From Thermodesulfobacteriota bacterium (lineage in GTDB: Bacteria > Thermosulfidibacterota > Thermosulfidibacteria > Thermosulfidibacterales > B14-G1), in the NCBI GenBank assembly GCA_024274915.1, contig JAJSAC010000063.1:19976-83975 (forward strand): 64,000 bases of DNA, read 5' to 3'. The translations under genes and the position numbers were made by a program. Numbering within the stretch: the first letter of the stretch is position 1; each line of letters starts with the position of its first letter. Positions 61,764 through 64,000 of the stretch are shown here, piece by piece. The notes under the pieces were generated by a model. The model ran no database searches. It saw nothing but the letters and a program-made list of their open reading frames with translations, and had not been told where the DNA came from.

Positions 61764-61900
61764 CGCGTTGATGTGTGAATATGTTAATGAGTAGATGAGT
61801 GAACGGGTGAATGGGTGGGCGCGTGGATGCGTGGATGCGTAGAAAGGTATACCCACTGACCCATCTACCCATACACCCATTTACCCATTTGCCCTTGACA
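61764..61900. repeat. degenerate octamer arrays in inverted orientation
   Basis: GTGAATAT GTTAATGA GTAGATGA GTGAACGG GTGAATGG GTGGGCGC GTGGATGC GTGGATGC ... ATCTACCC ATACACCC ATTTACCC ATTTGCCC. Confidence 0.8.
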
Positions 61901-61953
61901 TCTCCTCTCTCCCGGTTTATTTACCCCCTAACCTTGCACAGGGAGAGAATTGG

Positions 61954-62037
61954 ATGAGTAGCTCTAGGAAATACATGAGCCTGTTGCTTAGCCTGCTATT
62001 GCTGAAGGCCCGCTCAGGGGTCTTCAGGGGGGGCTAG
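61954..62037 (+). CDS. leuL: candidate leucine leader peptide (27 aa)
   Basis: MSSSRKYMSLLLSLLLLKARSGVFRGG*; seven Leu codons in eight positions, upstream of leuA and of terminator hairpins. Confidence 0.75.
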   Translation: MSSSRKYMSLLLSLLLLKARSGVFRGG

Positions 62038-62053
62038 GTGTAGCGACTTCTGA

Positions 62054-62090
62054 GGGCCACGGGCGGGCCAGCCCGTGGCCCTTTTCTTTT
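62054..62090 (+). terminator. attenuator terminator 1
   Basis: GGGCCACGGGC-GGGCCA-GCCCGTGGCCC perfect 11-bp stem followed by TTTTCTTTT. Confidence 0.85.
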
Positions 62091-62127
62091 GGGCCACGGT
62101 TCAACCAAGGATCGTGGCCCTTTTTAT
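62091..62127 (+). terminator. attenuator terminator 2
   Basis: GGGCCACG-N14-CGTGGCCC followed by TTTTTATTT; arms repeat those of terminator 1. Confidence 0.7.
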
Positions 62128-62160
62128 TTGGCCAAAAAACACAGGGAGGAGGTAGAGGTT

Positions 62161-63699
62161 ATGTCGGACAACAGGGTGTACATCTTTGACACTACCCTCA
62201 GGGACGGGGAGCAGGCCCCTGGTTTTTCCATGAATATTGAGGAGAAGATCGCTGTAGCCAAGCAGCTGGCCAGGCTGGGGGTGGACGTCATCGAGGCGGG
62301 CTTTCCCATTGCTTCCCCCGGCGACTTCGAAGCGGTGAAGCGGGTGGCCCAGGAGGTGAGGGGGACCGTCATTGCTGGGCTCTGCCGGGCCAACGAGAAG
62401 GACATTGAGCGGGCGGCGGAGGCCCTGAAGTACGGGGAACGGGCCAGGATCCACACCTTCATTGCCACGTCGGAGATCCACATGAGGTACAAGCTCCAGA
62501 TGGATCCCGAGGATGTGCTCCAGGCGGCGGTGGCGGCCGTGAGGTTTGCCCGGAACTTCACCGACGACGTGGAGTTTTCCGCAGAGGATGCCACTAGGAC
62601 GGACATGGACTTTCTCTGCCGGGTGGTGGAGGCCGTTATAGGCGCTGGGGCCACCGTGGTGAACATCCCCGATACTGTGGGTTACACCATTCCGGAAGAG
62701 TTTGGGGAGCGCATTGCCATCATCATGAATCGGGTGCCCAATGTGGACAAGGCCATCATAAGTGTCCACTGCCACGACGATCTGGGCCTGGCCGTGGCCA
62801 ACTCCCTGACGGCGGTTAAGGCCGGGGCCCGGCAAGTGGAGTGTACCGTCAACGGCATTGGCGAGCGGGCAGGCAATGCGTCCATGGAAGAAATTGTCAT
62901 GGCTATCAGGACCAGGAATGATCTCTTCGGCCTCACCACGGGCATTCAAACCCAGGAGATCTACCGTACCAGCCAGTTGGTCTCCAGGGTGACAGGGGTT
63001 TATGTCCAGCCCAATAAAGCCATCGTGGGGAAGAACGCCTTTGCCCATGAGGCAGGTATCCACCAGCATGGGGTCTTGTCCAATCCCCTCACCTACGAGA
63101 TCATGACTCCCGAATCTGTGGGGGTGCCCAGCAGTCGCCTGGTCTTGGGCAAACACTCGGGTCGCCACGCTCTCAAAGAGCGCCTGGCCTCTTTGGGCTT
63201 TGATTTGGACGATGAGACCCTCAACCAGGTCTTTGGCAAATTCAAGGCTCTGGCTGATAAGAAGAAGGAGGTCTTTGACGAGGACATCATCATCATCGCC
63301 GAGGAAGAGCTCATGGCCGTACCCCGGGCCTTCGAGCTGGACTACATCCATACCACGGCGGGCAACAAGGTCCTGCCCACGGCCACAGTGCGCCTTAAGA
63401 GGGGGGAGGAGAGTTTTCAGGACTCGGCCATCGGGGACGGTCCCGTAGAGGCCTCTTACAACGCCATAGACCGTATCACAGGCGTGCCTGGCAAGCTCCT
63501 GTCTTACCAGATCAGGGCCGTTACCCACGGTCGTGAAGCCCTGGGTGAGGTGACGGTGAAGGTAAAATTTAATGGCATCACCGTCTTAGGCCGGGGCTCC
63601 AGCACCGACATTATAGAGGCCTCGGTTAAGGCCTACATAAATGCGGTGAACAAGTACGTGTATAAGAAGAAGAGAGAGGAGCAGGGGGCCGATAGTTGA
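62161..63699 (+). CDS. leuA: 2-isopropylmalate synthase
   Basis: [82 protein letters not shown]-terminal LeuA allosteric domain; start taken at ATG 62161. Confidence 0.94.
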
Positions 63700-63830: not shown

Positions 63831-63934
63831 TCAGGACTTCCCCCAAAATTCCCTTCCTGGTAAAGGCACCACGCTCAGAATCCTGGATTTCCCCCTTCAA
63901 ACGAGTGAAAGGGCGGAGCATTCCTCCCTTGTCC

Positions 63935-64000
63935 ATGGCTGATGGCTGATTGCTCATGGCTCATGGCTGATAGCAACTATGAGCATTGAACCATGAACTA
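63935..64000. repeat. degenerate heptamer array, reverse-complement copy of the 34890 element; continues to window end
   Basis: TGGCTGA TGGCTGA TTGCTCA TGGCTCA TGGCTGA TAGCAAC TATGAGC ATTGAAC CATGAAC. Confidence 0.75.

Follow-up and report, generated by a model that had tools for sequence, protein, structure and literature searches.

A predicted leucine attenuator of leuA in which a relay helix links two tandem terminators, and related leaders in the same phylum

Attenuation by a leader peptide is an established mode of control of leuA. The his leader is a relay that can be followed helix by helix, with A:B, C:D and E:F set against B:C and D:E, and only its last hairpin is a terminator. In Salmonella and E. 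coli, the pause hairpin and the terminator of this his attenuator, a chain of alternative helices, are separated by an extra hairpin (Elf and Ehrenberg 2005, PMC1183508), which is thought to lower basal read-through (PMC1183508). The leuL attenuator of the same organisms combines transcription attenuation with a Leu-codon leader peptide and a pause close to where the leader ORF ends (PMC9291695). The LEU element of Actinobacteria has a Leu-rich ORF before leuA, forms a pseudoknot or a stem in which the Leu codons pair with the leuA Shine-Dalgarno sequence, and lacks a terminator (PMC1262725), and the rimP leader of some Gammaproteobacteria has a second terminator in tandem upstream and a potential antiterminator (PMC2965389). 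We present here the leader of leuA in a 64-kb stretch of DNA (the window), which is probably a ribosome-mediated transcription attenuator working as a relay of alternative helices (P1, AT1, A:B, B:C and C:D). Judging from its modelled folds, leuA appears to be switched by the speed of the ribosome over an upstream run of Leu codons.

The closest topology is that of the his attenuator, the likeness being an extra hairpin with alternative pairings that link all the helices (P1, A:B and C:D against AT1 and B:C). The leuA leader differs in having Leu rather than His codons and in belonging to other organisms and other genes. Whereas the his leader terminates only at its last hairpin, the extra hairpin here is often followed by a T run and is probably itself a terminator, with arms that closely copy those of the final terminator; in the window, hairpin 1 carries the tail TTTTCTTTT, and the leuA leader of genome G006 and the livH leaders have none. 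A Leu-codon leader before leuA is shared with leuL, but here there are two terminators with a relay helix. The LEU element also has a Leu-rich ORF before leuA, but here terminators and an antiterminator accompany it; a LEU-type base stem (Leu codons with the leuA Shine-Dalgarno sequence) is absent from the predicted folds of the leader, in which terminators are present. Tandem terminators are common to this leader and the rimP leader, which is not described as an amino-acid leader-peptide system (PMC2965389). A search of open-access text turned up no account of amino-acid attenuators in which tandem terminators are joined by a relay. The leuA leader would be a variant of known leader-peptide attenuation, its tandem-terminator relay having no Rfam match and no description that we found.

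The features of the locus, in window coordinates, are as follows.
61895-61923, + strand: putative sigma-70-like promoter with -35 TTGACA (61895-61900), 17-nt spacer and -10 TATTTA (61918-61923), 9 of 12 matches
61941-61947, + strand: putative Shine-Dalgarno sequence of the leader ORF, GGGAGAG, by sequence reading, 6 nt before the ATG
61954-62037, + strand: leader peptide ORF MSSSRKYMSLLLSLLLLKARSGVFRGG, 27 codons plus TAG, with seven Leu codons between 61981 and 62004
62002-62027, + strand: P1, pause-type hairpin of 10 bp (62002-62011/62018-62027), 86.7% of cells paired over six sequences, z -4.1
62007-62069, + strand: AT1, long antiterminator, a 26-bp hairpin of arms 62007-62036 with 62041-62069 that takes in arm A (pairs 62007-62015/62061-62069, 62017/62060, 62019-62030/62047-62058 and 62033-62036/62041-62044), outer helix 100% paired with two pairs changed on both sides, z -7.1
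62054-62090, + strand: terminator 1, arm A 62054-62064 with arm B 62071-62081 and tail TTTTCTTTT at 62082-62090, from fold, T run and conservation
62073-62099, + strand: B:C relay helix of 9 bp (62073-62081/62091-62099), which excludes both terminator 1 and terminator 2
62091-62129, + strand: terminator 2, arm C 62091-62102 with arm D 62109-62120, 12 bp, and tail TTTTTATTT at 62121-62129, from fold, T-rich tail and conservation
62161-63699, + strand: leuA, 2-isopropylmalate synthase, the controlled gene, from an NCBIfam equivalog above cut-off and a LeuA_dimer domain

Direct reading of 61954-62037 bore out the Leu-rich 27-codon ORF of the preliminary description, with Leu codons in seven of eight positions (starting at 61981, 61984, 61987, 61993, 61996, 61999 and 62002), the last of them inside P1. 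Among the 914 short ORFs of 12 to 40 amino acids that the window has on its two strands, no other exceeds five Leu in eight codons. As in attenuators, the predicted translation is rich in codons for the amino acid of the controlled gene (7 Leu in 8 codons), intrinsic terminators stand before leuA (two predicted, GC-rich and with T runs), and AT1, which shares arm A with terminator 1, is predicted only with a ribosome on the Leu codons. The putative promoter ends 30 nt before the leader ATG, and the TTGACA-17-TATTTA site was not picked up by a stricter promoter scan. Transcription starting downstream of 62037 had been named as evidence that would speak against attenuation; the putative promoter lies upstream of that point, and relatives have corresponding sites. 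Upstream of the leader, on the same strand, is a rhomboid-like gene, with low-complexity GGGTGNATG-like words between the two (61777-61880). The leuA gene occupies part of the last 2 kb of the window, and two adjacent 21-nt repeats lie 3′ of it (63929-63970). In a scan leaving out near genomes, the best relatives of LeuA were 64-66% identical (NC10/Methylomirabilota and others). A second LeuA-like gene (G000:C11:30018-31514, L034; 45% identical) directly follows an apparent aminotransferase gene on contig C11, and no attenuator of the leuA-leader kind was found upstream of it.

Relatives were drawn from nine genomes of the phylum, all in one order. Six complete leuA leaders, that of the window included, were compared; in the other three genomes, the leader lies at a contig end (G007), leuA runs past a contig end (G005), or no close leuA was seen (G001, 73% complete). 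The six peptides are MSSSRKYMSLLLSLLLLKARSGVFRGG, VSSSRKHMSLLLSLLLLKARSGVFRGG, VKKIGLLLSLLLLKARPGAFREG, MIRDRALLLGLLLLEARLGVFGGG, MLMLLLNGLLLTKARLGP and MRKEAILSLLALLLLRRTRLRSLW (initial GTG printed as V). All keep the Leu run while the N terminus has diverged, as expected of a leader peptide. The helices of terminators 1 and 2 are 99.3% paired over the six leaders with six pairs changed on both sides, a result reached by 0 of 500 shuffles, although the covariation counts are taken over related sequences and the shuffles ignore kinship. The preliminary description had made its reading depend on such an alignment, and both the Leu-rich ORF and the paired arms proved to be conserved. The same data bear on whether two ordinary terminators and a chance Leu-rich ORF simply follow the upstream gene, with the leuA promoter downstream of them. 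The rhomboid-like gene on the same strand would suit that explanation, which we nevertheless consider highly improbable, more so than any other weighed here: the ORF, the arms and their order are kept across genera while the DNA further upstream differs, AT1 and B:C are conserved, a promoter-like site precedes the ORF, and the gap from the last T run to leuA is only about 30 nt.

A covariance model built only from the six leuA leaders recovered further leaders in the genomes of the phylum at E values of 1e-20 to 1e-5. Of 30 family leaders, 17 have a promoter-like site upstream, where shuffled sequences gave 1.3. The codons of the leader fit the downstream gene in five gene classes (leuA, trpE, ADH synthase, livH and paaK), and the leaders in G000, the genome of the window, include the following.
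G000:C55:23283-23445, - strand: tandem-terminator attenuator of trpE with the WWWW leader MMERVETISVVSCWWWWRQGVPPAP (L148)
G000:C33:22854-23015, + strand: two-hairpin module with the leader MMKRDLYRWFWFYFGRCLPSRPSGCHF before the gene for ADH synthase (TIGR01949; L149)
G000:C48:24582-24664, - strand: Trp-codon leader MRIDSINQAWWWRGEVCPLRA and module before the gene for a LivH-like permease (L179; also L150, L151, L181 and L182)
G000:C71:8576-8672, - strand: Phe leader VGVVGVNREGFWGGFFFINLGP (GGFFF) with one terminator before paaK, phenylacetate-CoA ligase (L155; also L153, L154, L157, L158 and L160)
G000:C67:14705-14797, - strand: WWW leader MMKKMATLQGWWWQTL and a weak module match before the gene for a possible outer-membrane protein of unknown function (L194)

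ADH synthase is 2-amino-3,7-dideoxy-D-threo-hept-6-ulosonate synthase, an aldolase early in aromatic synthesis, and its leader has codons for Trp, Phe and Tyr side by side (RWFWFYF), as though it sensed the three aromatic amino acids together. The LivH-like permease has a Trp leader and the module in five genomes; it is probably an importer linked to tryptophan and not to branched-chain amino acids. PaaK probably serves the metabolism or supply of phenylalanine, for example from phenylacetate. From shared arm sequences, we infer a common origin of the leuA, trpE, ADH-synthase and livH leaders, and one design seems to have been re-used with other codons before tryptophan and other aromatic genes.

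Each of the five helices of the window's leader folded better than all 200 of its own dinucleotide shuffles (z -4.1 to -7.1), and the whole stretch 61981-62130 gave a fold z of -8.3. The preliminary description had A:B and C:D each forming a stem followed by a T run; both are terminator-like and fold far better than shuffles. Its arms A (62054-62064) and B (62071-62081) were exact, while its C (62091-62098) and D (62113-62120) were the outer 8 of 12 bp, and its first hairpin, put at about 62002-62026, has the 10 bp described and a true end one base further on, at 62027. A second antiterminator, proposed to pair 62007-62017 with 62050-62058, was in the wrong register, as 62007-62015 pairs with 62061-62069 and 62019-62030 with 62047-62058. 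B:C had been expected to disable both terminators. It is predicted to pair over 9 bp and would oppose terminator 2, but terminator 1 is out of its reach: RNA polymerase is already past that terminator when C is made, so the long antiterminator AT1 has to pre-empt it. In the modelled folds, the main antiterminator is AT1 rather than the pairing first proposed.

Transcripts were folded by stage, either just before arm B appears or up to the end of C, with ribosome masks. With the ribosome on the first Leu codons and the transcript ending just before arm B, one long AT1 is predicted in all six leuA leaders; it shrinks as the ribosome crosses the last Leu codons and is gone at the stop codon. Across the wider set, all leaders are predicted to form AT1 while the ribosome sits on the control codons, and nearly all lose it once the ribosome is at the stop codon. 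Given AT1, B:C has a probability of 0.88-1.00 in 23 of 23 two-hairpin leaders folded to the end of C, and with the ribosome at the stop codon, A:B reaches at least 0.83 in 20 of the 23, the other three being weakly predicted. With no ribosome, AT1 is also favored over P1 at equilibrium. Folding with a masked ribosome, a check suggested at the outset, gave a divided result: at full length, the equilibrium fold prefers both terminators at almost every ribosome position, and the dependence on ribosome position is seen in the stage-wise folds. Given that equilibrium preference, the switch must be kinetic, as argued from the stage folds.

When Leu-tRNA is plentiful, the ribosome would reach the stop codon (62035-62037) and block AT1; A would then pair with B as terminator 1, C would be left free to pair with D as terminator 2, and transcription would end. 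When Leu-tRNA is scarce, the ribosome would wait on the Leu codons, and AT1 would fold before B is made and hide A. B would thus stay free and take C once it is transcribed, so that terminator 2 would be blocked and leuA transcribed. In this way a single decision of the ribosome would be passed by B:C to terminator 2. We infer the transcription start, the pausing, actual termination and the leucine response of the leuA leader from sequence. The Leu-rich leader, the mutually exclusive predicted helices and the conservation in relatives support the original reading of the locus as a likely leucine attenuator.

Control could also proceed without ribosome stalling at the Leu codons, through a protein or small molecule that binds the leader, as proposed for the LEU element of Actinobacteria, where the Leu-rich ORFs preceding leuA departed from classical attenuator behavior (PMC1262725). 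For the present leader, we consider this very improbable. No Rfam family, riboswitch and T-box included, was found in the window at gathering score; the control codons (Leu, Trp, Phe or mixed aromatic) agree with the pathway in which the gene acts; and the predicted folds vary with ribosome position as attenuation requires. Rfam leader families, leu and trp included, gave no match up to E 0.5 in 16 loci carrying family members. Permissive E-values brought up only a sub-threshold ncS54 (28.3 bits against a cut-off of 43) and chance matches.

A and C are near copies and both hairpins of the window have good T runs, so hairpin 2 could be a simple back-up that arose by duplication. The locus would then be an ordinary leucine attenuator that decides once, between AT1 and terminator 1, and B:C would be a by-product of the likeness of A and C. 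Pairing was counted over 23 two-hairpin leaders (207 cells per helix), with A:D, expected to have no role, as the control. Paired cells numbered 207/207 for A:B, 206/207 (99.5%) for B:C, 202/207 for C:D and 192/207 for A:D. Copying alone predicts that A:D equals B:C, yet A:D is worse, which speaks against B:C pairing as a by-product of A copying C. B:C has 22 both-side changes in the 23 leaders, all counts being over related sequences. The ADH-synthase leaders in the window's family have a mismatch in C:D where B:C is intact, and in the leuA leader of G004 and in livH, a C-to-U change in arm C is accompanied by a matching change in D while B still pairs by G.U. A T-rich tail follows hairpin 2 in 23/23 leaders. 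Hairpin 1 is retained without a T run in the leuA leader of G006, five livH leaders and the trpE leader of G005, which would fit a role as a switch, and a strong terminator 2 without a relay would defeat antitermination. A single decision with a back-up hairpin is thus unlikely. For the relay of alternative helices, the sequences show its parts and how these are conserved and covary, and the stage-wise folding shows which structure is predicted at each step.

Outside the phylum, 279 genomes were searched with a model of the two-hairpin module at E below 1e-6, and 9 were matched, such matches being biased toward the model consensus. They lie mostly before trpE (Trp leaders) and apparent DAHP synthase genes (aromatic leaders), the genes being named by sequence reading. 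The loci L183, L185-L191 and L193, from other phyla, have tandem-hairpin attenuators whose leaders are rich in Trp or aromatic codons and which stand ahead of trpE, of a trpB-like gene and of apparent DAHP synthase genes. The 30 best trpE matches, a set picked independently of the RNA model and drawn mostly from other phyla, include 4 with a WW short ORF upstream, one of them doubtful. The tandem form is present at only 1 of those 4 loci, which was already among the RNA-search matches, and the form is therefore not general. Other Leu-rich short ORFs precede leuA at L012, L028, L087, L089, L092, L111, L116 and L118 (in Phycisphaerae and Deltaproteobacteria, for example), most of them without tandem terminators.

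We put at about even the chance that the module was copied and re-coded within this small phylum (Leu for leuA, Trp for trpE and the LivH-type permease, and Trp/Phe/Tyr for ADH synthase), which would make it a leader-peptide regulon with a double terminator under a single ribosome decision and, by way of the tandem Trp attenuators of other phyla, an old uncatalogued class. A his-type relay is usually presented as a single special case, and here the same logic is found before several kinds of gene within one phylum. The relay helix itself covaries, which opens the relay to dissection by comparison, and the control codons predict gene functions in uncultured organisms.
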